Below are positions 6,037 through 61,942 of a DNA stretch of 64,000 bases, piece after piece; within the stretch, counting starts at the first letter, position 1; each line of letters opens with the position of its first letter. Position numbers and translations under genes: made by a program. Source of the DNA: Salinigranum halophilum (lineage in GTDB: Archaea; Halobacteriota; Halobacteria; Halobacteriales; Haloferacaceae); contig NZ_ML660182.1 in assembly GCF_007004735.1 (NCBI RefSeq), forward strand, positions 248,001 to 312,000. The letters run 5' to 3'. The notes under the pieces are model-generated. The model did no database searches and was not told where the DNA came from. It worked only from the letters and a program-made list of their open reading frames with translations.

Positions 6037-6108
6037 ATCGGTGGGTCCGCCGGGGTGGTAAAAGAGGTGTCGTCCCGGGCCCGTCTCCGCCGTCCGTCCT
6101 GGCGACGC

Positions 6109-7176
6109 TCAGGGCTTGACGAGGATTTTCACCTGGTCGCTCTCGGGGTCGAGCAGCGACTCGAAGCCCTCGTCGATGATGTCGTCGAGGTCGATTCGCG
6201 CGGTGATGAGGGGGTCGACGTCCAGCGTGCCGTCCGCGAGCATGTCGATGACCATCCCGTACTCCTCGCCCGACCGTGGCCCGCCGAGGTACGCCAACGT
6301 CCCCTGTATCGAGCGCTCGCCGGTGACGATGCCGAGCGGGTGTGCGCTCGCTTCCTCCTCGAAGATGCTGACGATGGTGGTCGTCCCCTGCGGCCGGGTG
6401 GCCTGGATGGACTGCTTGTACGTCGCCTCGATGCCGGCGACCTCGAACGCGTTGTCGACACCGCCACCGGTGAGGTCGTGTATCTCCTCGACCGCGTCCA
6501 CCTCCGTCGGGTCGACGAGGTGGGTCGCACCGGACTCCGTCGCCAGTTCCCGGCGGGCCTTCCGGGGTTCGGAGACGATGATGTCGCCCGCACCCGCGGC
6601 GCGGAGCGACTGGATGACCGAGAGGCCGATGGGGCCGCTGCCGAACACGGCGACCGAGTCGCCGGCCTGGACACCCGCGCGGCGGACCGCGTGCAGGCCG
6701 ACGGCCAGCGGTTCGACGAGCGCCCCGTGTTCGATGGGGACCCCCTCGGCGAGCGGGACCGCCTGGTGTTCGGCCACGACCACGTTCTCGGAGAACCCAC
6801 CGTCGGCGGCGAGACCGACGAAGTTGATGTCCGCACAGATGTGGTAGTTGCCCTCGGCGCACTGGCGGCACTCGCCGCAGTGGAGGATGGGGTTGATAGC
6901 GACCGCGTCACCCTCGTCGAGCGACTCGACGCCGTCGCCGACTTCGCTCACCACGCCGCTGAACTCGTGGCCCATCGTGATGGGCATCTGCTTGCCCGAG
7001 AGCGGGTGGGGTGCCTCGCCCGGAATGAAGATGGGACCTGCGGCGTACTCGTGCAGGTCCGTCCCGCAGATGCCACAGGTCTCCACGTCGACCCGCACCT
7101 GCCCCCGTCCAACTGTCGCGGGTTCGACGTCTTCGACTCTCACGTCCTTCTGACCGTAGTAAACTGCTGCGCGCAT
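6109..7176 (-). CDS. Zinc-dependent alcohol/2,3-butanediol dehydrogenase, MDR family
   Basis: A 355-aa medium-chain dehydrogenase. CGICGTDLHEY supplies the catalytic zinc Cys, followed by TMGHEFSG. The structural zinc lobe is the four-Cys CGECRQCAEGNYHIC segment. GSGPIGLSVI is the NAD(P) dinucleotide fold. The layout matches butanediol, sorbitol and threonine dehydrogenases. The start MRAAVYYG (7174-7176) was chosen because this family begins there and a TATA-like ATTTATCATT lies about 30 bases upstream; an in-frame start six codons earlier exists. Substrate is unknown. Confidence 0.88.
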   Translation of the reverse strand: MRAAVYYGQKDVRVEDVEPATVGRGQVRVDVETCGICGTDLHEYAAGPIFIPGEAPHPLSGKQMPITMGHEFSGVVSEVGDGVESLDEGDAVAINPILHCGECRQCAEGNYHICADINFVGLAADGGFSENVVVAEHQAVPLAEGVPIEHGALVEPLAVGLHAVRRAGVQAGDSVAVFGSGPIGLSVIQSLRAAGAGDIIVSEPRKARRELATESGATHLVDPTEVDAVEEIHDLTGGGVDNAFEVAGIEATYKQSIQATRPQGTTTIVSIFEEEASAHPLGIVTGERSIQGTLAYLGGPRSGEEYGMVIDMLADGTLDVDPLITARIDLDDIIDEGFESLLDPESDQVKILVKP

Positions 7177-13972: not shown

Positions 13973-15039
13973 TGCTCGCGGAGGCGCTCTTACAGTCGAG
14001 CGCGCCGCTCCCCGACGCGATCGCGCGGCTCCTCGGGCTCGACGGTCTCGCGGGTGCCGTCGTCGGCGGCCTCATCGGAGCGTTCATCATCGCGAACCTG
14101 ATGCTGACGATGACGGCCGTCGCCGGCCCCTGGGCGAAGCGGAAGATCACCGCCGCCTTCACCGACAGGATCGCCGTCAACCGTATCGGTCCGTTCGGTC
14201 TGCTCATCATCGTCGCGGACGCGGTCCGACTGCTCTCGAAGGAGCTCATCGTTCCCGAAGGCGTGGACCGGCCGGCGTGGGACCTCGCACCCATCGTCCT
14301 GCCCTTCTCGGCTCTCCTCGGGTTCGCCGTCATCCCGTTCGGGAACGGCATCCAGTTGGCCGACCCCGAGACCGGGCTGGCGTTCGCCTTCGCGGCGGCG
14401 TCGATCGCCTCACTCGGCCTGGTGATGGCGGGCTACGCATCGAACAACAAGTACTCGCTGCTCGGTGGCCTGCGCTCTATCGCACAGAACATCGCGTACG
14501 AGATTCCGCTCCTGATTACGGCCGCGTCGGTCGTCATCTTCACCGGGACGCTTCAGATGAGCGGCATCGTCTCCGCACAGGCGGAGCCGCTCGTCACCGT
14601 CGCGGGCGTGACGATTCCGCAGTGGTTCGCGTTCGTCAACCCGTTCGCGTTCGTCCTGTTCATGGCGGCGAACATGGCCGAGATCGGCCGCAACCCGTTC
14701 GACATCCCGGAGGCGCCGACCGAAATCGTCGCCGGCTACCAGACGGAGTACTCCTCGGTGTACTTCGTCCTCTTCTATCTCGGCGAGTTCATCCACATCT
14801 TCCTCGGCGGCGCGCTCGCCGCCGTGTTGTTCCTCGGCGGGCCGGCCGGCCCGGTCCTGCCGGGCTTCGTGTGGATGATCATCAAGATGTGGGCGTTCTT
14901 CCTGTTCACGCAGTGGTGCCGCTCGGCGGTGCCCCGCGTCCGCATCGACCAGCTCATCGAGATCGGCTGGAAGGGTATGCTCGTCCTTTCGTTTGCGAAC
15001 CTGGTGCTCACGGCCATCATCGTGGGGGTGATCGCGTAA
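13972..15039 (+). CDS. nuoH: Complex I subunit H
   Basis: A 355-aa membrane subunit with eight or nine helices that forms the end of the quinone channel. Conserved loops include DRIAVNRIGPFGLLI, AEIGRNPFDIPEAPTE and EYSSVYFVLFYLGEF. The ATG at 13972 overlaps the nuoCD stop by one base. Confidence 0.95.
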   Translation: MLAEALLQSSAPLPDAIARLLGLDGLAGAVVGGLIGAFIIANLMLTMTAVAGPWAKRKITAAFTDRIAVNRIGPFGLLIIVADAVRLLSKELIVPEGVDRPAWDLAPIVLPFSALLGFAVIPFGNGIQLADPETGLAFAFAAASIASLGLVMAGYASNNKYSLLGGLRSIAQNIAYEIPLLITAASVVIFTGTLQMSGIVSAQAEPLVTVAGVTIPQWFAFVNPFAFVLFMAANMAEIGRNPFDIPEAPTEIVAGYQTEYSSVYFVLFYLGEFIHIFLGGALAAVLFLGGPAGPVLPGFVWMIIKMWAFFLFTQWCRSAVPRVRIDQLIEIGWKGMLVLSFANLVLTAIIVGVIA

Positions 15040-50615: not shown

Positions 50616-51389
50616 GTGTTCCGCACGCGCCGCCCGACCGTCCGGCTCCTACTCGTCTGTGCGCTGCTCGTCGTGGGGACGACACCCGCGGTGGTCGCCG
50701 CCGAACCGACGTCCGCTCCTCGGCTCGTGTCGGTGTACCCGAATCCCCTCGCCGACGGCGACGCCGGGGAGTTCGTCGTCGTCACCACGACAGGGCCGCA
50801 GAACCTCACCCTCGCTGACGGCGAGGGGGCCATCGAACTCTCGCTCCCCGGCGGCCCGGTCGCCATCTCGGCGGACCCGACTGCGACGAAGGCGCTCACC
50901 GACCGCCCGGTCGTCGCCGTCTCGGGACTCGAACTCGCCAACGGCGGCGAGCGACTCGTGCTCAGCCGCGGGGGGAGAACGGTCGACACCGTCGTCTACG
51001 AGGACGCGCCGGCCGGCGAACGACTCCTCGTCGACGGGGACGGACGGGAGTGGCGTCCGCTCGGGTACGAGCCCCGTCCGGTTCTCGCTCACGGGGGCGC
51101 GCAGGTGACGGCGTTCGTCCTCCCCGACTCGCCCGACGTCGCGCTGGACACGATTCGGGCGGCCGACGACCGCATCCTCCTCGCGGGCTACACCTTCACC
51201 TCGCCGCGCGTCACGCGCGCCCTCGTGGACGCCTCCGAGCGCGGGGTCCGCGTTCGTCTCCTCGTCGACGACGCGCCCGTCGGTGGCCTGACGACTCGGG
51301 AGGCCCGGATGCTCGACCGACTCGCTCGGGCGGACGTGGAGGTTCGCGTCATCGGCGGCGAGGGTGCACGCTTCGCCTTTCACCATCCG
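50616..51389 (+). pseudogene. Phospholipase D-like secreted protein, 3' part lost at mobile-element border
   Basis: The GTG at 50616 (TATA-like TTCATAAC about 30 bases before) starts a protein with a signal peptide (1-29, LLLVCALLVVGTTPAVVAA). A lamin-tail-like beta domain follows, then the first half of a PLD domain (ADDRILLAGYTFTSPRVTRAL; GVRVRLLVDD). The frame reads ARFAFHHP, the start of the catalytic HxK motif, but Lys and all following PLD residues are missing and the next codons are unrelated. About 50-60% of a normal protein remains. The 3' part probably lies beyond the right end of the element, outside the window. Confidence 0.78.
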
Positions 51390-51564
51390 TGGTCACGAGA
51401 ACCAAATGCGGCCGAAACACCCCCGTCGCCTTCGCCTGGAGACCGACCGACGGCGCGGGGCGGTTCCGCCATTGAGGCCAGTTCCGCCGCGCACTGGGAT
51501 TCGTTAAGTGGGTCGCGGCCCTCGCCACGAATGCGGCCGTCGGCGGGGCGGCCCGGAGACGAAG

Positions 51565-52374
51565 ATGAAAGACGAAGAAACGACGAGCGACGGCTATGAA
51601 AAGCGCCTCGGCGACCTCGCCGAGGAGATGAAGAGGCACATCGAGAAGTCGGACGACGGATGGGCTGCGGCGCGGGACATGGTGCTGCTGGCCAGCGACA
51701 TCGACAACCTGCCGGCCGTGAAGAGCGGGGCCAGCAACCCCATGAAGGTGTACTGGAACCCCGTTCACCACATGCTGGCCGAGGGCGACGGGTCGTACCT
51801 GGCGGCGTTCGGCCTGGGCGACGGAACAAGGGCGGTCCTCGGAGGAGGCTGGGGGATAGAGGACAGCAACAAGCAAGACCTCGCCGCGTCCGTGGCCGCC
51901 ATGGGATTCGAGGACCCAGAACACCTCGATAGACATTGGAAGAACATGCAGGGCAACGACGGCGCCGAGGGTGGCCGAGGAGGCCGAGCGCCGGACGAGA
52001 CAGGTGACAAGCAGCGGCTCCGCCCGCTGCTCGACATGGAGCAGGACAGCGCGTACAACGGGACGGACTGGGAGGCCACGGACGCCCAGAAGGCCGGCGA
52101 GGCACTGCTATGGGCGGCCGACGAGTACGGCCTCGGCCTCGAGGACAGGCTCCGCGCCCTCGCGCACGCCTTCGAGCGCACCGACCGGTGGCGGAACAGC
52201 ATCATGTCGCCGCGGGCCCTGTGGCTCCTCCTCGGGCGCAAGATGCGCGACGAGGACCTGTACGTACAGACCAAGGCGGAGGCCGGCGAGCTCGACGACG
52301 AGCTGCTCAGCCACGCCGAGAACATCGAGGTCGAGGCCGAGTGCCGGGCCGAGCGGCTGCGGGGGCTGCTGTGA
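51565..52374 (+). CDS. Element protein of unknown function
   Basis: A 269-aa protein, hydrophilic and rich in Asp, Glu, Ala and Trp (NPVHHMLAEGDGSYLAAFGLG; DRLRALAHAFERTDRWRN). No motif was recognised. The ATG at 51565 (MKDEETTSDG) was preferred; an upstream ATG at 51508 adds an Arg/Gly-rich leader. The next gene overlaps its stop, so they form an operon. Confidence 0.6.
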   Translation: MKDEETTSDGYEKRLGDLAEEMKRHIEKSDDGWAAARDMVLLASDIDNLPAVKSGASNPMKVYWNPVHHMLAEGDGSYLAAFGLGDGTRAVLGGGWGIEDSNKQDLAASVAAMGFEDPEHLDRHWKNMQGNDGAEGGRGGRAPDETGDKQRLRPLLDMEQDSAYNGTDWEATDAQKAGEALLWAADEYGLGLEDRLRALAHAFERTDRWRNSIMSPRALWLLLGRKMRDEDLYVQTKAEAGELDDELLSHAENIEVEAECRAERLRGLL

Positions 52375-52868: not shown

Positions 52869-52939
52869 CAACCGCCACCCTTAGACGCACCGGACGGCGT
52901 CCCCGATATGCGATATGGGTCGAAAAACGGCGTGCGGGG
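52869..52939 (+). repeat. Element repeat, copy A
   Basis: Imperfect 71-base copy of a sequence also found at 59612-59681 in the same orientation. The shared blocks are CAACCG-CACC, GACGCACCG, GATATGCGATAT (52905-52916) and AAACGGCGTGCGGGG (52925-52939). Weaker similarity continues for about 30 bases further. The core ATAT-GCG-ATAT is itself symmetric at its ends. Confidence 0.75.
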
Positions 52940-53088
52940 TTGGGATGGCCCTCTCGACCAGGTCATCGGTAGCCCAGTGGACGCACAATCAATCTGTGGC
53001 CACATGGGTGTGGTGTGCTCCAGGCAGGCACGAGGTGTGGTTTGAGTTATTCAGCGGCCCTTGGACAGGCTACGAGTGGGACCGGTCA

Positions 53089-53126
53089 AGCCTTTATATA
53101 GCGGGGCCAGACGGTTCTTTAAATAG
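53089..53126. promoter_or_regulatory. Two strong TATA-like boxes in origin region
   Basis: CCTTTATATAGC (53091-53102) and TCTTTAAATAGC (53117-53128) are the best TATA matches in the element. They can be read on either strand. No gene starts at the expected distance, so they may drive a small RNA or help melt the DNA. Confidence 0.4.
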
Positions 53127-53450
53127 CTGACTGGGCCCTGGTCGGCCTCCTGCCTGGGGTGAAAACGCGGTGCGGGGACAGCCTGTCTGGGGCGGTCGGG
53201 CCATTTCGGTAACTTTTACCCTCCCCGGGAGGCCCCGTAGGTGGACCGGTGCAGACGTAGACGAGAGAGACATGTGGTCAGGATAAAGCACGCACGGGCA
53301 CACGCTCACGAAAAACAAATTGAGCCTACCCCCCAGACAGCCCGACCAGGCCGTCCCCGTACGTCGGTTTACCCCCAGACAGGCCCCCAGTCAGGGGCCC
53401 AGACATTGCCCGACCACCCCTATTAAAAGGGCCCAGACGGGTCTATTGCA
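53103..53450. repeat. Iteron-like repeats, candidate replication origin
   Basis: CCAGAC occurs at about 53107, 53334, 53375, 53399 and 53433 and once inverted (GTCTGG, 53185). The longer form CCCCAGACAG occurs at 53331, 53372 and inverted at about 53180, often followed by CCCGACC. Between the copies are short AT-rich stretches (AAAAACAAATTG, CTATTAAAAGGG). The cluster lies immediately beyond the 3' end of the replication gene. This layout is typical of iteron origins, but no binding data exist. Confidence 0.55.
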
Positions 53451-53476
53451 CGCAGGAAAACAAACCGCAGAAAAGT

Positions 53477-55963
53477 CTACTCGAGGTCCTGTTGGACGGC
53501 GCCCTGTTGCGCTATGCCGAGCCACCGTCTGCCGTCCTCGTTCAGCTCGATACCGCGGTAGCAGCGCTTTCTGCCGCCGCCGTGTGAGACGCGGCTGACC
53601 TCGACGTCGAACTGGTCTACCCGCTTGAGCTTGGTGGTCAGCTGTCCCTTGGAGAGCTCGGTGACACCCTCGTGGTCGGCCCACGCGTTGTAGGCGTTGA
53701 GCATCTGGTCCTTGCCGACCCACTCGCCGTGGTCGCAGAAGAGCTCGGCGAACGCTTGGACCGGGTTGGCGTTCGTGTCGTACCCCCTCCGTATCTCCGC
53801 CGCGGACTTCTCGTGCTGCAGCGCGAGCGCGTTCCGCTCCTTCACCCTGTCGAAGGCATCGACGGCGCGGTTGAGGATGCCGGAGAGCTCGGTCTCGGTG
53901 GTCATCATCGCGACCGCCTCGTGCTTCATCAGGTCCTCGTCGGTCTCCGCCTCCATGTCCACACCCATGTGGACGGGCACGAGCCTCCGCGACATACCCT
54001 TGGAGTCGTCGGCGAACTCCGGAGGTTCGTTCGCCGCGCCGATTATCTGCGCCTCGTTGCTGAAGGCGAACTTCTTGCCGTACTTCTCCCTCGCGCTGAC
54101 GGTGTTGCCGTCGGTGAGCTCCTTCAGCACGCCGGTGTTCTTGATGACCCCCGAGTCCATGTCCCCGATGATGTTCGCGCGTTTGCCGTACAGCTGGGCC
54201 TTGCTCGCGTCCGCGTCGTAGCCGGTCAGGTCCCGGAGGCTCTCGGACGAGACCGAGTCGCCGACGAACTCACGGACGACGTCCAGGAGGGTCGTCTTGC
54301 CGTTCGCGCCGTCCCCGTGCAGGATGACGAAGTTGGCCACGGGGTACCCGGGCGAGATGCAGAGGGCGACGGCGTCGTAGACGGTGTCGATGAGCGTCTC
54401 GTCGCCCTCGAGCGCCGTGCGGAGGAACGCGTCGAACGCCTCCGGCTCCACGCCCGGGTCGTACCGCACCGGGATGGACTCCAGCAGCATGTGCTCCGGG
54501 GAGTGGTCGAGCAGTTCGCCGGTCTCGAGGTTCAGGGTGCCGTTCTCGCAGGCCACCAGCGGCTCGTCGAGGCTCGCGCCTATCTCGTCCTCGTCGACCT
54601 TTGTGGCGCTGAGGTGGTACTCGACCTTGTTCTGCTCGTTCTCCGAGGCGTACTTGCCCAGTTTGTCCGCGAGTATCTCGTGCAGCCTGTTCTCGCCGTC
54701 GCTCTTCCACGTCCCGGTGCTCGGGTCGTAGCGGAACAGGTCGCCGCTCTGCTCGTGGGAGAACCAGTCGTGGTCCTCGCGGAGCAGGTCGGCGGCGATC
54801 ATCCGCGCGTCCACGAAGTTGCCGTTGTCGTAGTTCCACCTGACGGTGTCCCAGTCGGTGACGCCATACCCGCCGTCCTCCTTGTCGACGGCGCGCAGGA
54901 CGCTCCGCTTGTAGCTCTCGCCCTTCCGCGGCCACTTCTTCAGCGCCGGCGGGTCGACGGCGTCGGGCAGGTTCCGCCCGTCCATCGCGTCCCGGACGGC
55001 GCCCTTGTCGCCGTCGAACCACCACGCGAGATTTCCGGCGAGCGCCGTCTCCGCGCTCGACCTGTCGTCGAAGCCGCTGTAGTTGCCCGACCAGAGCGCC
55101 TGCAGGCTCTCGGAGTCGCTGTCCACGACGGCCTTCTCGAGCCTGTCCCGGTACTCCGCCCGGGACACGGAGGAGGATGTGGACACATCCTCCCGTCCCG
55201 TGTCGGGAGCCGGCTCCGGCGCGTCCCTCTCGGGCACCAGCGCGAGCAGCGTCTCCGCGTCGACCTCGAGGATGGGAGCGTCGTTGGCGAGCGCGTACTC
55301 GCCCTCGCCGTCCTCGGAGCAGTCGTGGTCGTCCTTGTCGCACGCCGCGAGGGTCGAGCCGGGGCCGACGGTGAACTGGTTGTCTACGCGTATCTCGCCC
55401 CACTCCACTTTCGGGTTCCTCGCGCCGCACTTCTGCTCGAAGCGGTCCGCGATGTCCGCCGGGCCCTTCACGTAGAGGTGGCCCTCGTGCGGACCGGCGT
55501 GCGGGGAGGCGACCGAGAGGGTGTCGGCGAGCTCCTCAAGCTTGTCGGGGAGCCCGTCGCCGGCGTCGTCCACGTCGATGTCGACGAGCCCGTCGCCGCC
55601 GTACACGCCGTAGTTTCCCGACAGCTCCTCCGCGGTGGGCCCGTACCGGTCGTGCCGCCCGACCGGCTTCTTCCACCCGTCGTGGACGTCGATGAAGCGC
55701 CCGTAATCGAGGTCGGCCTCCATGAGCCGCTTGGCGAACGCCCTGCGGTCCCGCTTCGTGTCCGGGCTCTCGTGGGACCACACGAGGCCTGCGCAGTCGT
55801 CGCACGCGTCCTCGCCGCCGAGGACGGACGATGTGGCCGGCTCCCCGCAGAAGTAGCACGGGTCCGACTCGCCGGAGCCGAACATTCCCGCGCACTCGTC
55901 GCAGACCTGTTCGCCCGCGACCTCCGTCGTCTCCCGGTCCGATTCGCACACATGGCAGCTCAT
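53477..55963 (-). CDS. Replication protein: zinc ribbons, PrimPol primase-polymerase, SF3 (D5-like) helicase
   Basis: An 828-aa multidomain protein. Two CxxC zinc ribbons fill residues 3-24 and 36-57. The archaeo-eukaryotic PrimPol domain follows, with motif I DIDVDD at 128-133, SPH at 153-155 and GEIRVDN at 189-195. A helical primase-C-terminal-like segment lies at about 285-330. The SF3/D5 helicase has Walker A GDGANGKT at 550-557, Walker B IIGDMD at 598-603, sensor 1 IIGAANEPP at 640-648 and Arg finger at 659-660. A winged helix near 745-815 ends it. It probably primes, extends and unwinds at the element origin. It is the last gene of a minus-strand operon (ATGA overlap with the gene before it). 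Confidence 0.9.
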   Translation of the reverse strand: MSCHVCESDRETTEVAGEQVCDECAGMFGSGESDPCYFCGEPATSSVLGGEDACDDCAGLVWSHESPDTKRDRRAFAKRLMEADLDYGRFIDVHDGWKKPVGRHDRYGPTAEELSGNYGVYGGDGLVDIDVDDAGDGLPDKLEELADTLSVASPHAGPHEGHLYVKGPADIADRFEQKCGARNPKVEWGEIRVDNQFTVGPGSTLAACDKDDHDCSEDGEGEYALANDAPILEVDAETLLALVPERDAPEPAPDTGREDVSTSSSVSRAEYRDRLEKAVVDSDSESLQALWSGNYSGFDDRSSAETALAGNLAWWFDGDKGAVRDAMDGRNLPDAVDPPALKKWPRKGESYKRSVLRAVDKEDGGYGVTDWDTVRWNYDNGNFVDARMIAADLLREDHDWFSHEQSGDLFRYDPSTGTWKSDGENRLHEILADKLGKYASENEQNKVEYHLSATKVDEDEIGASLDEPLVACENGTLNLETGELLDHSPEHMLLESIPVRYDPGVEPEAFDAFLRTALEGDETLIDTVYDAVALCISPGYPVANFVILHGDGANGKTTLLDVVREFVGDSVSSESLRDLTGYDADASKAQLYGKRANIIGDMDSGVIKNTGVLKELTDGNTVSAREKYGKKFAFSNEAQIIGAANEPPEFADDSKGMSRRLVPVHMGVDMEAETDEDLMKHEAVAMMTTETELSGILNRAVDAFDRVKERNALALQHEKSAAEIRRGYDTNANPVQAFAELFCDHGEWVGKDQMLNAYNAWADHEGVTELSKGQLTTKLKRVDQFDVEVSRVSHGGGRKRCYRGIELNEDGRRWLGIAQQGAVQQDLE

Positions 55964-56427
55964 AGTCGGCCCGCCTCCGGCTCGTGGGCCTTCCTCGCGT
56001 GCTGAATCATGCCCCTGCGGCCGGCGTACTCGCCGTTGCAGACTGGACAGACGCCGTCGTCGGGCAGCTGGTGGAAGCTCTGACCGGTGTGGTCGACGGC
56101 GAGGTGGGCGTACAGCCGCGGGACGCGCCGCCCGCAGAACCCGCAGTCCTCGCCTACGACCTCAAGCCGCCCCTCGGGGAAGGCATAGGTGGCGCACGGC
56201 GGCGCCTCGGTGTGGTAGCGGGTCCGCCACTCCCAGCCGGCGTCCTCGGCCATGTTGACGAACACGACCTCCACGGCCCGCTCGTCGGGATCGCAGCCGG
56301 TGGCCTCGTGCACGGTCATGCCGTCGTAGGCCTCCGTCTCGGCGCACGTGCCCGGGACGGCCACCACGACCGCCGTGTCCGGGTCGCCGTCTTCGGAGTC
56401 GACCACGATGTCGCCCGGCTCAGGCAT
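55960..56427 (-). CDS. Element zinc-finger protein
   Basis: A 155-aa protein. The C-terminal third has two metal-binding fingers: CGFCGRRVPRLYAHLAVDH and CPVCNGEYAGRRGMIQHARKAH, both C2H2-like. The N-terminal part has beta-strand character (PGDIVVDSEDGDPDTAVVVA). It overlaps the replication gene by ATGA and may assist replication or its regulation. C2H2 fingers are common in haloarchaeal virus and plasmid proteins. Confidence 0.75.
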   Translation of the reverse strand: MPEPGDIVVDSEDGDPDTAVVVAVPGTCAETEAYDGMTVHEATGCDPDERAVEVVFVNMAEDAGWEWRTRYHTEAPPCATYAFPEGRLEVVGEDCGFCGRRVPRLYAHLAVDHTGQSFHQLPDDGVCPVCNGEYAGRRGMIQHARKAHEPEAGRL

Positions 56428-56719
56428 GGGCCACCTCCAAGTCGCGCCCGACGTCGCACGGCTCCGCGTTGCAGTACAGATAGCCGCGGTTGGGCTCGTC
56501 GTACCAGTCGGGGTCGCTCACGACCAGCTGTGGGTACCTCTCGGCCATGCTCTCGACCATGTCGGGGCTCCCGGTGAGCATGAGCGGGCTGCCGCACTCG
56601 GGGCAGCTCTCGCCCATGTCCATCACGCTGGCGCCGTCGTACGCGAGGGCGTACAGCGCCGCCGCCTCGCGCTGCCCCGGGTCGTCTGCGTCGTACGACC
56701 ACACGATGTCTTGGGTCAT
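56420..56719 (-). CDS. Small element zinc-ribbon protein
   Basis: A 99-aa protein with CPECGSPL in the middle and CNAEPC near the C-terminus, four Cys that could bind one zinc. It overlaps the next gene by eight bases and the previous gene by ATGA. No other motif. The ATG at 56719 (MTQDIVW) was chosen because of this overlap. Confidence 0.7.
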   Translation of the reverse strand: MTQDIVWSYDADDPGQREAAALYALAYDGASVMDMGESCPECGSPLMLTGSPDMVESMAERYPQLVVSDPDWYDEPNRGYLYCNAEPCDVGRDLEVAHA

Positions 56720-56916
56720 CGCTTCACACCCCCGCGGTTGGAGATGTCGTTGCCGACGAGCTCGTGCGCCTCGCGCCACGAGCCGAACCGCCGGATGTAC
56801 GTCTCCGGTGCCGCTTGTCCGTTCCGTCTATACTCCGCCATCGTCACGGGTCGTCCGAGCTCCTCGCAGACCCGCTTGAGGTCCGAGATGAGCTCGTCTT
56901 CTTCGTAGTTCCTCAT
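56716..56916 (-). CDS. Small protein with homing-endonuclease-associated repeat
   Basis: A 66-aa protein that is essentially one HNH-associated DNA-binding repeat: ELISDLKRVCEELGRPVTMAEYRR, then YIRRFGSWREAHELVG. Such repeats accompany HNH nucleases, but no nuclease domain is present here, so it is likely a stand-alone DNA-binding protein. It overlaps the next gene by ATGA. Confidence 0.75.
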   Translation of the reverse strand: MRNYEEDELISDLKRVCEELGRPVTMAEYRRNGQAAPETYIRRFGSWREAHELVGNDISNRGGVKR

Positions 56917-57029
56917 GCTTGCGCTCCACGACGGGAGAAGAAGGGCTTATTTTCCGGGAGCGCGTATCCAAACACACTGGTTCTGTGCTTGGGCGCTCCG
57001 GCGTCCTCCTTCCAACCGTCTACTCTCAT
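56913..57029 (-). CDS. Possible 38-codon leader gene of the replication operon
   Basis: A frame from ATG 57029 (MRVDGWKEDAGAPKH) ends in TGA overlapping the next ATG (ATGA), the same junction type as the rest of this operon. A TATA-like TTTAATAT lies about 20 bases before the ATG, slightly too close for a leaderless start, so either the start is further inside or this is leader sequence. An upstream in-frame ATG at 57152 would lengthen it to 79 aa. Confidence 0.35.
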   Translation of the reverse strand: MRVDGWKEDAGAPKHRTSVFGYALPENKPFFSRRGAQA

Positions 57030-57332
57030 GTACGCCCTGTGCCATATTAAATCCGTCACTGAAAGACTAAATTCAAGTCTTGGTAGTTCTGGATTCTTTA
57101 TTTTCAGGGCCTGAGCTGCCGGTTCTCTGTTTCCGGAGCCCGCAGGACGCACTCGTGACGACGTGCGGAACCCACTAAATCGTTCCGAGAGCGTAGGTCG
57201 TCCTCAGGAGTCCATATTCGGCCCATGCCAGGTCCGGTCACGGGGACGACCGAACGCAAGGGCCGGCCAGAGAAGTCCGGATCTGTGAGAATGTGGAGAC
57301 GAAACAGTGTGATGAGCGAGAGGCGGGAGCGC
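57030..57332. other. Non-coding region with promoter of the replication operon
   Basis: This 303-base stretch contains the AT-rich segment 57044-57110, with TTTAATAT on the minus strand at 57045-57052 as the likely TATA box of the replication operon. The rest shows no convincing frame; a plus-strand frame from 57225 overlaps the small gene opposite and was not accepted. Confidence 0.4.
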
Positions 57333-57491
57333 TCAGCCCATCATGCCCTTCAGTTCCTCAGCGGGCGGGACCCCGGCCTCGTCGAGGAGCCTCCCGACGG
57401 CACCAGTCTGCGTGTTCATGATCATGAGCTTGTAGTAGTTCAGCCGCAGCATCTCGTCCTCCGAGACGCGCACCCTGCTCTTGTTCACCAT
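57333..57491 (-). CDS. Small element protein, 52 aa
   Basis: The frame reads MVNKSRVRVSEDEMLRLNYY and ends AGVPPAEELKGMMG. Composition is that of a real protein (mixed charged and aliphatic residues, no Arg/Ser runs), and codons such as CTG, AAG and AGG match the element. A TATA-like TGATAAG centred about 25 bases before the ATG fits a leaderless mRNA. It may be a small DNA-binding or regulatory protein; nothing more can be said. Confidence 0.6.
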   Translation of the reverse strand: MVNKSRVRVSEDEMLRLNYYKLMIMNTQTGAVGRLLDEAGVPPAEELKGMMG

Positions 57492-57706
57492 GCCGTATTA
57501 TACGATTCGCGGGCTTATCAGACCTTCCCGCCGGGATCAGCGGCTCCGACGGTCTCAGGTTAGGCGCACGGCCCGTATAGAATTATTTACGCGCGTTGTC
57601 GAAGAAAGTCCGACCAACTTCGACCGTTGGTAAAATCGACCAAGTGGACCTGGGAGGATGGGGTGTCCCAATGGGGTCGTCATCGGAAATGGGGTGCGAG
57701 AAGGCA

Positions 57707-57726
57707 ATCGCATATCGGAGAGGCCT
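57707..57726 (-). repeat. Element repeat, partial inverted copy C
   Basis: On the minus strand AGGCCTCTCCGATATGCGAT matches copy B in 19 of 20 positions, in the opposite orientation to copies A and B. It lies in the gap downstream of the resolvase operon, just past a hairpin. Similarity does not extend into the GGCGTGCGGGG block. Confidence 0.6.
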
Positions 57727-57751
57727 GAGGGACGCCGGAAGGGCAGGGGTT

Positions 57752-57772
57752 CGGGGACCGGTTCAGTCCCCG
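57752..57772 (-). terminator. Hairpin at the end of the resolvase operon
   Basis: CGGGGAC at 57752-57758 pairs with GTCCCCG at 57766-57772 around a seven-base loop. It spans the stop codon of the small Cys-rich gene. A seven-pair GC stem at the end of a transcript suggests a terminator or RNA-stability element. Confidence 0.45.
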
Positions 57773-57969
57773 ACGATCCTCGTGGGCGTCCACTTGCGAG
57801 TCAGGCTGAGCAAGGAGGCCTCGTCGGGGCCGCATCCCCAGGTGCACTCCACGTCGGTGACGGTCCTGGCCGTGCAGGACCTCTCGACTTGAACCTGCAC
57901 GAGCCCGCCGCACGCGTGGGACGGGCACGGCCGGAGGAACACCTCGGTGATGCGGGCGCAGTCAGTCAT
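57763..57969 (-). CDS. Small Cys-rich element protein
   Basis: A 68-aa protein with LRPCPSHACGG in its first third and CTARTVTDVECTWGCG in the middle. The Cys/His spacing could bind zinc. Its ATG overlaps the resolvase stop by eight bases, so it is cotranscribed and may act with the resolvase. Confidence 0.65.
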   Translation of the reverse strand: MTDCARITEVFLRPCPSHACGGLVQVQVERSCTARTVTDVECTWGCGPDEASLLSLTRKWTPTRIVGD

Positions 57970-58546
57970 CGTCCCTCAGCCCCATCCGGTCCAGACGGTC
58001 GTACACCGTGTTGCGGGACACGTCCAGCTCCTCGGCGAGGTACGAGACGTTGGCGCCCTTCTCGTACTTGTCCCTGAGCCACTCGAGGTCGACGTCCTCC
58101 TCCGGCCTGCCGACCCGGCCCTCGCGCTGCGCCTCGCGGTAGCCGCGCTCCATGCGCTCCCTGATGATCTTGCGCTCGTACTCCGCTATCGAGGAGAGCA
58201 GGTTGAACAGCAGCTCGCCCTCCTTGTTCGAGGTGTCAATGCTCTGCTCGGTGACCACGATGTCGATGCCGCGCTCCTCAAGGTCGGCCGCCCATGTGGA
58301 CAGCTGGTTCACGCTCCGCCCGAACCTGTCCAGCTTCGTGAAGGCGACGGCGTCGAAGTCCCCGATGCGGCTCATCATGTAGTCGAAGCCCGGCCTCTCG
58401 TCCGCCACGGCCGAGACGCCGTCGTCCTCGAACACCTCGTAGTCGACGCCCTGGTACTCCGCCCAGTCTACCAGCCTCTGCCTCTGCGGTCCGATGTCCT
58501 GGTTGACGGTGGACACCCGGGCGTACAGCGCAACCTTTCCTTGCAT
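57962..58546 (-). CDS. Serine recombinase (resolvase/invertase family)
   Basis: A 194-aa recombinase. It starts MQGKVALYARVSTVNQD with the nucleophile Ser12, continues with AFTKLDRFGRSVNQLS (Arg residues of the active site) and the long E helix RKIIRERMERGYREAQREGRVGRP. It ends with a helix-turn-helix at about 160-190 (VSYLAEELDVSRNTVYDRL). This is the standard size of small resolvase/invertase proteins, not large serine integrases. An ATG two codons earlier is possible. The gene lies between repeat copies A and B, which are candidate target sites (inference). Confidence 0.92.
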   Translation of the reverse strand: MQGKVALYARVSTVNQDIGPQRQRLVDWAEYQGVDYEVFEDDGVSAVADERPGFDYMMSRIGDFDAVAFTKLDRFGRSVNQLSTWAADLEERGIDIVVTEQSIDTSNKEGELLFNLLSSIAEYERKIIRERMERGYREAQREGRVGRPEEDVDLEWLRDKYEKGANVSYLAEELDVSRNTVYDRLDRMGLRDDD

Positions 58547-58711
58547 GCGCATCTATCTTGGATTTATATCCTAATATGCCCTTTTATCCTGTTGATGATG
58601 TATCTTAGGATTTCCCAACAGAGGACGGGAGCCCGACACCGCCTTCTTGGTTACATCCGCTGATATTCAGGACAAAGAATTTATCAATACTTCTGATAGA
58701 CTGGAATCTAT
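58547..58711. promoter_or_regulatory. Divergent promoter with repeated TTAGGAT motif
   Basis: AT-rich gap between the resolvase and the small membrane protein. GATATAAATCC and GATAAAAGGG on the minus strand are TATA candidates for the resolvase; GAATTTATCA at about 58678-58687 serves the plus-strand gene. ATCCTAA near 58568-58574 and TTAGGAT near 58606-58612 are inverted copies. TATCTTGGATTT and TATCTTAGGATTT form a direct repeat. This may be an operator for resolvase autoregulation. Confidence 0.5.
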
Positions 58712-58978
58712 ATGAGAGCGAAGGTGAAGTACGGCGCCCTGATAACGGGCGTAGGACTACTGCTCTGGTTTGGCGGCATCGAGATTGGTGGCGCCGACGT
58801 GCTGATGTACGGCGGAATGACAGGAATAGTGGTCGGCGGCCTGATGCTCTACCTCGCCTATGAGAAGTGGTACTGCGCCGCCTGCGGGCAGGTCCTCTCC
58901 CGCGGCAGCAAACCCGACCGGTGCGAGCGGTGCGGGAGCAATCGCGTGACCACCAAGGACCCGGGTGCGGTCCGCTGA
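58712..58978 (+). CDS. Small membrane protein with zinc ribbon
   Basis: An 88-aa protein with two membrane helices (about 7-25 and 31-50), then a cytoplasmic or external zinc ribbon CAACGQVL...CERCGS. A TATA-like GAATTTATCA about 30 bases upstream supports the start. Function is unknown. Confidence 0.72.
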   Translation: MRAKVKYGALITGVGLLLWFGGIEIGGADVLMYGGMTGIVVGGLMLYLAYEKWYCAACGQVLSRGSKPDRCERCGSNRVTTKDPGAVR

Positions 58979-58986
58979 GTCCTCGT

Positions 58987-59148
58987 TCAGCCGAGGAGCG
59001 AGTGGAACACTACAAGGGTGCCGGCGGCGATGCCGGCCATCGAAATAGCGACGATTATTTCTAGCGGACCGTGCGGGATGTGGCCCGACACCACGAGCAC
59101 CACGACCATCAACACCGTCAGGTAGAGCCAGTCGTCGTACTTACCCAT
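58987..59148 (-). CDS. Small membrane protein, 53 aa
   Basis: The frame begins MGKYDDWLYLTVLMVVV and ends VFHSLLG. It has two hydrophobic helices separated by SGHIPHGPLE. Its ATG lies inside the end of the preceding gene (8-base overlap), showing it belongs to the same minus-strand operon. Confidence 0.65.
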   Translation of the reverse strand: MGKYDDWLYLTVLMVVVLVVSGHIPHGPLEIIVAISMAGIAAGTLVVFHSLLG

Positions 59149-59356
59149 CAGAGAACACCCCGGCCGGCGCGATCCGCACGTCCGTGATTCCGAGCCTCAA
59201 CTCAAGCTGACGCTCCAGCTCCTGCGCCTCCAGCACGTCGTCGCAAACCGCCATCACGTACGTGTGGTCGTCGTCCATCCACACCCTGGCGTCGACGGCG
59301 GCACGGACTGTGGCCACATCCTCTTCGCTTCGGCCGACGATCGCCACTCGGGTCAA
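59141..59356 (-). CDS. Small soluble element protein
   Basis: A 71-aa protein with a ferredoxin-like beta-alpha-beta pattern: TRVAIVGRSEEDVATVRAAV, then THTYVMAV-like strand and LEAQELERQLELRLG helix. The TTG start overlaps the stop of the preceding ribbon-helix-helix gene by TTGA; a GTG three codons later is also possible. No known family recognised. Confidence 0.55.
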   Translation of the reverse strand: MTRVAIVGRSEEDVATVRAAVDARVWMDDDHTYVMAVCDDVLEAQELERQLELRLGITDVRIAPAGVFSDG

Positions 59357-59505
59357 CGGCGCTCGCGCACATGGTCCATATCCTCCCTGCGGTCCAGCTC
59401 CTTGGCCACCGCGTACTTAATGAACGAGCCCGCGTCGTCGAAGCCGGCGTCGCCCATGACGCCCTCAATTCGGTCCTGCATCTCGTCCGGGATTCTCGGT
59501 CTCAT
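59353..59505 (-). CDS. Small ribbon-helix-helix-like protein, 50 aa
   Basis: The frame reads MRPRIPDEMQDRIEGVMGDA, then GSFIKYAVAKELDRREDM. The pattern, a short strand with Arg/Pro followed by two helices with FDDAGSFIKYAV, is that of CopG/Arc-type repressors. A TATA-like CTTTTAAGT about 30 bases before the ATG fits a leaderless mRNA. It heads a three-gene operon and probably represses it. Confidence 0.65.
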   Translation of the reverse strand: MRPRIPDEMQDRIEGVMGDAGFDDAGSFIKYAVAKELDRREDMDHVRERR

Positions 59506-59611
59506 GTTCGGATCCAGATACGTTCCGCACACTTAAAAGGCCGACTACCGCATCGGCCCCAGAACGGCTCCGGAGGGCTCAGAAACGGCCTGTGTGGCAT
59601 TTCCACGTACA

Positions 59612-59681
59612 CAACCGTCACCTCGGACGCACCGAGAGGCCTCTCTGATATGCGATATTGGGCCGGAAACGGCGTGCGGGG
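59612..59681 (+). repeat. Element repeat, copy B
   Basis: The 70-base partner of copy A at 52869-52939, in the same orientation, 6.74 kb away. Identical blocks: CAACCG, CACC, GACGCACCG, GATATGCGATAT (59647-59658) and AAACGGCGTGCGGGG (59667-59681). One one-base gap is needed near the start. Downstream, ACCAG and TGG positions also match. Confidence 0.75.
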
Positions 59682-59925: not shown

Positions 59926-60426
59926 ATGGTCACCACGGTATCGACCTACCCGACCGAGGAGCAGAGGGACAGGTGGCGCGAGCGGGCCGAGGAGCTGGGC
60001 ATGACCCAGTCCGACCTCGTCGCCTCGATGGTGGAGGCGGGCCTGAAGGCGTCGGAGGGCTTCGAGCCAGGCGTCGGCATGGACGAGACGGAGGCCGACC
60101 TCCGCGAGCAGCGCAACGAGCTCCGCGAGGAGCTGGAGCGTGAGAGGGCCCGCGTCGCCGACCTCGAGGAGCGGGTCTACCGCGGCGAACGGTGCGAGGC
60201 CGAGCGCTTCGTGTCCGAGAACCCCGGGTGCTCGCACTCCGAGCTCATCAACCACCTGCAGTCCACCGTGCCCGGCCGCATGGACAGGCTGACGGAGGGG
60301 CTGGTGGCCGACGAGACGCCAGACGGGGGCGAGGGCTGGTACCTGCCGGGCGACGAGGGCACCGGCGGCGGCTCGAGCGCGCCGTACGTCGCCGGGACCG
60401 GCCTGCCGATCGAGGGGGACCGCTGA
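59926..60426 (+). CDS. Putative DNA-binding protein with coiled coil (ribbon-helix-helix plus winged helix)
   Basis: A 166-aa protein. The N-terminus TVSTYPTEEQRDRWRERAEEL followed by GMTQSDLVASMVEAGLKA is a ribbon-helix-helix-type start used by a family of haloarchaeal element proteins. A coiled coil follows (EADLREQRNELREELERERARVADLEERV). A winged-helix-like end has FVSENPGCSHSELINHLQSTV then GLVADETPDGGEGWYL. It is first in an operon with the two integrase-type genes, and may control excision. Confidence 0.72.
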   Translation: MVTTVSTYPTEEQRDRWRERAEELGMTQSDLVASMVEAGLKASEGFEPGVGMDETEADLREQRNELREELERERARVADLEERVYRGERCEAERFVSENPGCSHSELINHLQSTVPGRMDRLTEGLVADETPDGGEGWYLPGDEGTGGGSSAPYVAGTGLPIEGDR

Positions 60427-60878
60427 TGGCCGGCAACAGGCCCACCGAGCCCGGCGAGCTGCTCGGCGTGTACCGGCGGCCCGCCGACGTGCCCGACCGG
60501 CACCGCCTGGCCCACCACGCCCCGGCCTACGAGGGCCGCGACGTCATCGGGGAGTGGCTGGCCGAGCACGTCCTGTCGGGCTGCGGGACCGACAACGCAA
60601 GGGAGAAAGCGCTGAGGCACGGCCGCAGGTGGCGCGATCATGCCGAGGGCCGGGGCGTGCACCACGCCCTCGCCGGGCCCGGTGACGTCGAGGCCTACGC
60701 CGCCTCCCTGTCCGGCAGCGACCGCACCGTGGCCAGGTACTGGAGGCGGCTCGTCGCGTTCTACGAGCACCTCCTGACCAGCCCGGACCACCCCCACCTG
60801 TACTCGCCGGTCTACATGGCCGCCGACATGGGAGGGGCGGCGCGCGAGGCCTGGGACACGGCGGCGGGGGTGCGGTGA
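60426..60878 (+). CDS. Integrase core-binding-domain-like protein without catalytic domain
   Basis: A 150-aa protein resembling the SAM-like N-terminal (core-binding) domain of haloarchaeal tyrosine integrases: VHHALAGPGDVEAYAASLSG, then RTVARYWRRLVAFYEHLL, then PHLYSPVYMAA. The catalytic domain is absent. It overlaps the full integrase gene by one base (TGATG) and the upstream gene likewise. It could be an accessory subunit that competes for or shares binding sites with the integrase, or a directionality factor; both are inference. Confidence 0.72.
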   Translation: MAGNRPTEPGELLGVYRRPADVPDRHRLAHHAPAYEGRDVIGEWLAEHVLSGCGTDNAREKALRHGRRWRDHAEGRGVHHALAGPGDVEAYAASLSGSDRTVARYWRRLVAFYEHLLTSPDHPHLYSPVYMAADMGGAAREAWDTAAGVR

Positions 60879-61942
60879 TGTCCCGCGAGGACGTGGCCGC
60901 CGCCTTCGGCCGCGGCCTGGACCCGCTGGCGGAGCACGCACCGGTGTTCGAGGACCTCGGGCTCGACGTCTTCGAGGCCTTCCTCGGGGAGACGGGCCCC
61001 AGGGCGCCGAACACGGAGCGCAACTACCGCAACAGCTTCCGGCACTGGCGGAGCTTCATGGAGTCCGAGGGCCGGCACCCCGCCTGCCCGTCGCGGTCCC
61101 ACGTCGAGCGGTACGTCCGGGCCCGCGCCGACGACGGCGTGCGGGCGTCCACCATCAGGACCGAGCTCGTCCACGTCGGCGCCGCGCACTCGTACTGGTG
61201 CAGGGACGAGGCGTACCCGCACACCGCCGACTTCGACCCGTTCGACGTGGACCCGCCGTCCGACGCCAGGGCGCCGGTGGACGACTACCCCAGGGTGACG
61301 CTCGACGACCTGCGGGCCGCGGTCTCGTCGACCGGCCACTACCTCGACCGGGCCGTGCTGGTGCTCCAGCTGAAACTCGGGCTCAGGGCGACGGAGCTCT
61401 GCAATGTGCGGATGGCGGAGGTGAACCCCGACCACGGCGGCCTGCGCGACTTCTACCCCGACATCGGCACGCACCCGGAGGTGGCGGACAGGCCGGGATC
61501 GCTGTACGTGCCGACCGGCAGGGAGGGCAACAAGTCGAAGCGCGCCCGCGTGCTGCCGCTGGACGACGAGGCCAGGCGGTGCCTCGCGCGCTACCTGCTC
61601 GTGCGGCCGACCTGCGGGCGGGGCGGCGTGTTCCTGAGCAAGCGGGAGAAGGTGCCGCTGACGAACAAGCACGTGTCGCGCGTCTGGAGGGCGGCCATGA
61701 CGGGCCGCCTCGCCGACCCCGACGGCAAGCGGCCGGTGCGGAGCCACTACGGCCGGCACCACTTCACGACGTACTGGGACGTGCACCGCGACTGGAACTC
61801 GGAGCTGGTGGCGTACATGCGGGGCGACGCCGCCGGGAGCAGGAACGCCGGCGGCTCGGACTCGATGAGCCACTACCTGCACGCGCACTACGAGGACATC
61901 GAGGCGCCGTACCGCGAGCAGGTGTTCAAGCTGGGGGTGTGA
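60878..61942 (+). CDS. Tyrosine recombinase/integrase
   Basis: A 354-aa XerC/D-like integrase. Its own SAM-like N-domain covers about 15-110 (NTERNYRNSFRHWRSFMESEG). In the catalytic domain Arg170 lies in KLGLRATELCNV, the beta-hairpin Lys in REGNKSKRARVLPL, and HxxR at 290-293 in SHYGRHHF. The nucleophile is most likely Tyr333 in SMSHYLHAHYED. The usual LGH motif before the Tyr is replaced by a longer MRGDAAGSRNAGGSDS loop. It probably integrates the element. Its end is five bases from the convergent gene. Confidence 0.9.
   Translation: MSREDVAAAFGRGLDPLAEHAPVFEDLGLDVFEAFLGETGPRAPNTERNYRNSFRHWRSFMESEGRHPACPSRSHVERYVRARADDGVRASTIRTELVHVGAAHSYWCRDEAYPHTADFDPFDVDPPSDARAPVDDYPRVTLDDLRAAVSSTGHYLDRAVLVLQLKLGLRATELCNVRMAEVNPDHGGLRDFYPDIGTHPEVADRPGSLYVPTGREGNKSKRARVLPLDDEARRCLARYLLVRPTCGRGGVFLSKREKVPLTNKHVSRVWRAAMTGRLADPDGKRPVRSHYGRHHFTTYWDVHRDWNSELVAYMRGDAAGSRNAGGSDSMSHYLHAHYEDIEAPYREQVFKLGV

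Follow-up and report, generated by a model that had tools for sequence, protein, structure and literature searches.

Element borders and gene content

An integrated element of approximately 15 kb begins near position 51390 of the window (the whole 64,000-nucleotide stretch of DNA that was analysed) and ends near 66425, past the window end. It interrupts a PLD-family gene whose halves lie at 50616-51390 and about 66425-67165, approximately 15 kb apart. The left junction falls at 51379-51391 (+ strand), where the gene is split after the codons HHP. Three genomes of the genus have the same gene intact, and the open frames of its relatives are 559-661 aa long. That the region is an integrated element, as originally predicted, is borne out by this split target gene and by two tyrosine recombinases encoded in the element. 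The element is best read as an integrated haloarchaeal plasmid of the P4-type PrimPol kind.

The first gene considered here, left of repeat copy A, encodes a 269-aa protein of no recognized family (51565-52374, + strand). The PrimPol operon is on the opposite strand. Its main product is an 828-aa PrimPol-D5/P4-type primase-helicase (53477-55963, - strand) with Prim-Pol, D5_N, DUF5906 and VapE-like regions, which matches PF09250, PF08706, PF19263 and TIGR01613 above cut-off. The operon also encodes a small protein with a weak zinc-finger resemblance below Pfam cut-offs (55960-56427, - strand) and a small ORF with no family above cut-off (56420-56779, - strand). A further small protein (56716-56916, - strand) has the HNH_repeat domain (PF18780, homing-endonuclease associated repeat; E-value: 1.6e-16). 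A 196-aa small serine recombinase of the resolvase/invertase type (PF00239; E-value: 1e-37) is encoded at 57962-58552 (- strand), and its 3' end is overlapped by a 68-aa ORF with no Pfam match (57763-57969, - strand). Next are an 88-aa ORF with a weak zinc-ribbon resemblance, below cut-offs (58712-58978, + strand), a 71-aa ORF with a TTG start (59141-59356, - strand) and RHH50, a 50-aa CopG/RHH-like small ORF that was assigned by eye and has no Pfam match (59353-59505, - strand). An integrase operon follows on the + strand: RHH166, a DNA-binding-type protein (59926-60426), p150 (60426-60878) and the tyrosine integrase Int1 (60875-61942; PF00589 and PF02899). Cargo genes and the second tyrosine recombinase are located further right.

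No relatives of the element as a whole were found in helicase and repeat-pattern scans of genome contigs, and scans of viral contigs with the recombinase, Int1 and the repeat pattern returned nothing related; an alignment scan recovered one distant contig. PrimPol matches in a plasmid collection are only about 22-32% identical, and the closest PrimPol relatives found are about 30-33% identical. The PrimPol-D5 domain order is the same as in the P4-type primase plasmids, satellites and integrated elements of archaea and bacteria, which likewise integrate using a tyrosine recombinase and have origin-type repeats beside the primase gene. Compared with these elements, the one described here additionally has a serine recombinase and the remote repeat copies A, B and C.

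The direct repeat pair A/B and partial copy C

Two imperfect copies of a sequence of approximately 70 bases are present in the same orientation, as originally described. A 17-kb self-comparison aligns copy A (52869-52939, + strand) with copy B (59612-59681, + strand) at 79% identity across 71 columns (E-value: 1.7e-9), and their starts are 6742-6743 bp apart. With gaps allowed, the alignment reaches 52961/59703; its score is 87, and the best of 200 shuffles scored 46. The longest core common to both is 12-15 bp, and the conserved blocks are CAACCG.CACC, GACGCACCG, GATATGCGATAT and AAACGGCGTGCGGGG. B is intergenic, flanked by the diverging RHH50 gene (- strand) and RHH166-p150-Int1 operon (+ strand). 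The PrimPol gene, the serine recombinase gene and an iteron-bearing inverted repeat were all found between A and B, as originally described. A third, partial and inverted copy near the recombinase operon was also confirmed: C (AGGCCTCTCCGATATGCGAT; 57707-57726, - strand) lies just 3' of this operon and matches the middle of B at 19/20 bases. Because its alignment scores against A and against B exceed those of all 500 shuffles, C is probably a relative of A and B, though a short one.

The repeat appears to be unique to this element. A and B contain the only two exact occurrences of GATATGCGATAT in the 4.2 Mb genome, and a BLAST search of this genome with B gave nothing further beyond chance-level G+C-rich fragments (best E-value: 0.05). 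The search of other haloarchaea put forward in the original prediction gave no match: nothing comparable to B was found in 170 family genomes, and a repeat-pattern scan of GTDB r220 contigs gave 11 matches, none of them haloarchaeal. The same scan of IMG/VR gave no matches.

The differences between A and B fall in blocks with fixed spacers and have no codon-position bias, and both copies are in non-coding DNA, in keeping with the earlier view that the copies lie where there are no convincing genes. As coding sequence, no frame convincingly concentrates its changes at third positions as a conserved peptide would; the frame in which 6 of the 11 changes are third-position ones is not an open gene common to the two copies. 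An RNA element was also considered. Rfam gave no match worth noting, and single-strand folding was no better than z -1.7 relative to shuffles.

Candidate iteron origin beside PrimPol

A comparison among the non-coding parts of the element identified a 364-bp imperfect inverted repeat at 53080-53443, at the 3' end of the PrimPol gene. Its Smith-Waterman score is 88, against a maximum of 53 in 200 shuffles. It contains converging TGTCTGGGG-type iterons at 53151 and 53184 (+ strand) and at 53331, 53373, 53385 and 53397 (- strand), all pointing to the centre. By position and structure, this inverted repeat is a candidate replication origin.

Inverted arrays are directly beside the PrimPol gene in five relatives (L154, L156, L159, L160 and L168). 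In L154 and L156 the array is on the 3' side of the gene and has AAGTGTCTTT boxes (z 4.8 and 12.9, respectively), and in L159 it is on the 5' side (z 5.3). The L160 array, also on the 5' side, has 108-bp arms that are 74% identical (BLAST E-value: 5e-12). The L168 array is on the 3' side and carries GTGCGGGG iterons and a perfect 20-base inverted pair, ATGTGCGGGATGTGCGGGGT (BLAST E-value: 8e-5). As L160 and L168 are not above simple shuffles, the evidence for these two arrays is the BLAST pair. Each of the five arrays is likely to be the origin of its element. Because comparable arrays are present in these relatives, the candidate origin at 53080-53443 is well supported by position and structure, as is the original prediction of a candidate iteron origin inside the bracketed module. 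No clear inverted array was found in the ten other PrimPol loci tested (L157 is equivocal, with upstream direct repeats), so the arrangement is common beside PrimPol and not universal. A limited literature search found no description of the origins of haloarchaeal PrimPol-helicase plasmids, which appear to be little defined so far. The inverted iteron arrays beside PrimPol in six genomes, including that of this element, thus give the family a concrete signature of its origins that can be tested.

The candidate origin can be compared with those of the Orc1/Cdc6 type, which in haloarchaea are defined by inverted origin recognition boxes (ORBs) with G-strings (PMC3528665). It has inverted boxes ending in G-runs, as do oriC1 and oriC2 of Haloarcula hispanica (PMC3936714, PMC3528665), and in both cases the boxes flank a less G+C-rich centre. 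This likeness is one of layout. Unlike Orc1/Cdc6 origins, the candidate adjoins a PrimPol-helicase gene, and no orc1/cdc6 match was found among the element genes scanned against Pfam.

The PrimPol element of L168 is flanked by 65-bp direct repeats (6046-6110 and 14042-14106; 98% identity). By eye, these resemble a tRNA 3' end, as in an ordinary tRNA-integrated element.

A box shared by the repeats and the origin

The 12-base pattern AAACNNNGTGCGGGG is matched by AAACGGCGTGCGGGG, the block at the right end of A and B. This pattern occurs three times in the 4.2 Mb genome: in A, in B and in the left arm of the candidate origin at 53163, as part of the box AAACGCGGTGCGGGG (53163-53177, + strand). 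The right arm contains a version of AAACNNNGTGCGGGG with two mismatches. For a genome as large as this one and with its composition, we calculate that chance would give about one match, which makes coincidence an unlikely cause of a third copy inside the origin. Over a longer stretch, local alignment of the origin arm with A or B gives a p-value of only about 0.01. The match spans one of the four conserved A/B blocks, and GATATGCGATAT is absent from the origin. A TCTGGGG iteron is also found at 59557 (- strand), 55 bp left of B. Remote copies of a relative's own origin boxes were found in none of the PrimPol relatives examined; the A/B/C arrangement is therefore not conserved.

The recurrence of the right-hand block in the origin arm makes origin-type or operator sites the best reading of A and B, ahead of recombination sites. 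In H. hispanica, a box-rich region separate from the origin can restrain oriC2, likely by titration of the initiator (PMC3936714). Given this precedent, the shared box and the TCTGGGG iteron near B, a binding role linked to replication is favoured. A, B and fragment C are quite possibly element-specific protein-binding sites tied to the origin, and this tentative assignment is weighed below against four other explanations.

The serine recombinase and alternative functions of the repeats

The serine recombinase has intact catalytic motifs (YARVST and KLDRFGR) and aligns to gamma-delta resolvase up to residue 187 (PDB E-value: 2e-20). In Pfam its Resolvase domain is strong and its HTH matches are weak, and its best PHROG match is described as a DNA invertase. 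At an E-value of 1e-12 or lower it is matched in 43 of 394 genomes of the class, its own included. Its domain layout, length and catalytic motifs are the same as those of small serine resolvases and invertases (gamma-delta/Tn3, Gin). Unlike these systems, the element has no recognizable res or gix-type site; AT-rich dyads seen by eye upstream of the recombinase gene are not above shuffles.

The original prediction was that A and B are the sites of this recombinase and that recombination between them releases a self-replicating circle of 6.74 kb, in effect a plasmid inside a plasmid. The bracketed module itself stands, as PrimPol, the candidate origin and an intact small serine recombinase are all encoded between the copies. 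In addition, the copies are directly repeated and contain several conserved blocks, similar to res sites with multiple subsites, and C adjoins the recombinase operon. A role of A and B in releasing a circle is not supported. Their 79% identity, which would be unusual between sites of one recombinase, falls short of the near-identity of an att or res pair; the direct repeats flanking the PrimPol element of L168 are 98% identical. Resolution between direct repeats is normally irreversible, and resolvases efficiently delete the intervening DNA. An active resolvase would thus be expected to have deleted the module, yet the module is intact in the assembly, and BLAST of the genome found no separate copy. 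No dyad above shuffles is present in A, B or C, a weak test that is equally negative upstream of the recombinase gene. No step in GC3 occurs at A or B. At L170, the locus of the best near-full-length recombinase homologue, no repeat pair with this spacing surrounds the gene. Resolvase action on A and B is thus not supported, and the nested circle is improbable. Alternatively, the enzyme could be an invertase that acts on B and C and flips the 1.9-kb segment 57707-59656. These two copies are inverted relative to each other, match at 19/20 bases and enclose the recombinase gene, and the best PHROG match would fit. The homology of B and C is limited to about 20 bp with no dyad, and inversion would turn whole operons around without an obvious switch, which makes this the most improbable of the explanations considered.

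A and B could instead mark where an old cointegration or exchange of modules took place: a replicon with PrimPol, the origin and the recombinase would have fused with an integrative element through a sequence common to both, and the copies left on either side would have diverged and have no present activity. They closely bracket the replication and recombinase genes, and B is located where the conserved RHH166-p150-Int1 operon starts. The upstream neighbours of this operon in its relatives are unrelated, which places a module boundary at 59.5-59.9 kb. Against this, composition does not change at the copies: GC3 is 0.94 for the PrimPol and recombinase genes inside, 0.89 for the 269-aa gene and 0.95-0.99 for the Int1 operon outside (the smallest ORFs of the module have values of 0.81-0.91). 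The blockwise conservation with fixed spacers also suggests selection and not a decaying scar, and module exchange is accordingly considered unlikely. Another explanation is that A and B, together with C, are operators through which an RHH-type regulator (RHH50 or RHH166) controls the flanking operons, without a role in replication. B is between two divergent operons that are each led by an RHH-like gene, and GATATGC-GATAT has a 7-bp direct periodicity, as in some RHH operators. RHH folds also head the structure matches of RHH166, which are weak and non-significant. Neither A nor C is close to a gene start, no such repeat is present upstream of the RHH166 homologues, and the match to the origin arm would be left unexplained. 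Operators of this kind are thus a rather doubtful explanation, more so than module exchange.

Proposed role of the repeats in replication control

The reading of A, B and C as origin-linked binding sites leads to the following model. The plasmid would replicate from the inverted-iteron origin at 53080-53443 using the PrimPol-D5 helicase. A adjoins this origin, B is in the divergent promoter region of RHH50 and RHH166-p150-Int1, and C is at the end of the recombinase operon. The boxes GATATGCGATAT and AAACGGCGTGCGGGG would be bound by at least one protein of the element, the candidates being the RHH proteins and PrimPol. We infer that binding would couple the initiation of replication to operon expression through autoregulation, titration or handcuffing. 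The serine recombinase would more likely be a multimer-resolution or inversion enzyme acting at a site of its own. With remote copies of an origin box at the integration and recombinase operons, one protein might even coordinate replication, integration and recombination, an extension of the model that we regard as unlikely. The A/B repeats would show whether PrimPol plasmids couple replication control to integration.

The integrase operon and the segment to its right

RHH166 has an RHH-like N-terminus, a long coiled-coil helix and an HTH-like C-terminus. Its structure model (mean pLDDT 68) weakly resembles RHH folds. Homologues of RHH166 are 35-44% identical, and those of p150 adjoin Int1 in seven loci. 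The complete RHH166-p150-Int1 operon is found in at least six other haloarchaeal loci (L151, L152, L153, L161, L162 and L163), with the p150-Int1 pair only in L164, and Int1 relatives are present in 61 of 394 genomes, its own included. Widespread in haloarchaea, this operon thus combines a tyrosine integrase with a small protein and a DNA-binding-type protein that has a coiled coil. It is similar to the SNJ2-type integrase operon (Int with the accessory proteins Orf2 and Orf3; PMC8371274), in which a tyrosine integrase is likewise encoded with two small proteins, one having a coiled coil and DNA-binding features. Gene order is different in SNJ2, and the likeness is one of gene content. A and B were also considered as the att site of Int1 and rejected, the seven relatives of the Int1 operon having no B-like sequence upstream and no repeat of the Int1 3' end within their loci.

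In this element, a direct repeat of the Int1 3' end (61880-61942) lies at 65026-65088 (L047:1026-1088), with 62/63 bases identical (98%). The 63-bp repeat includes the stop codon and encloses a 3.1-kb segment with lower-GC3 genes and no integrase; right of Int1, GC3 drops to 0.64-0.87. A 28-base right-end motif, CATCCAGTTTCTGAGCCCACCACC, is present at the true right junction (66409) and recurs less exactly at 64073 (24/28) and 65004 (20/28). Together, the Int1-end repeat and the recurring right-end motif suggest serial accretion of DNA between 61.9 and 66.4 kb, and the motif in particular suggests that inserts were added in tandem at one attachment-type sequence. These compositionally distinct accretions would be better candidates for nested mobile DNA than the region between A and B. 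The accreted segment also includes a gene similar to TIR effectors (L047:218-973; PADLOC Effector TIR, E-value: 2e-11).
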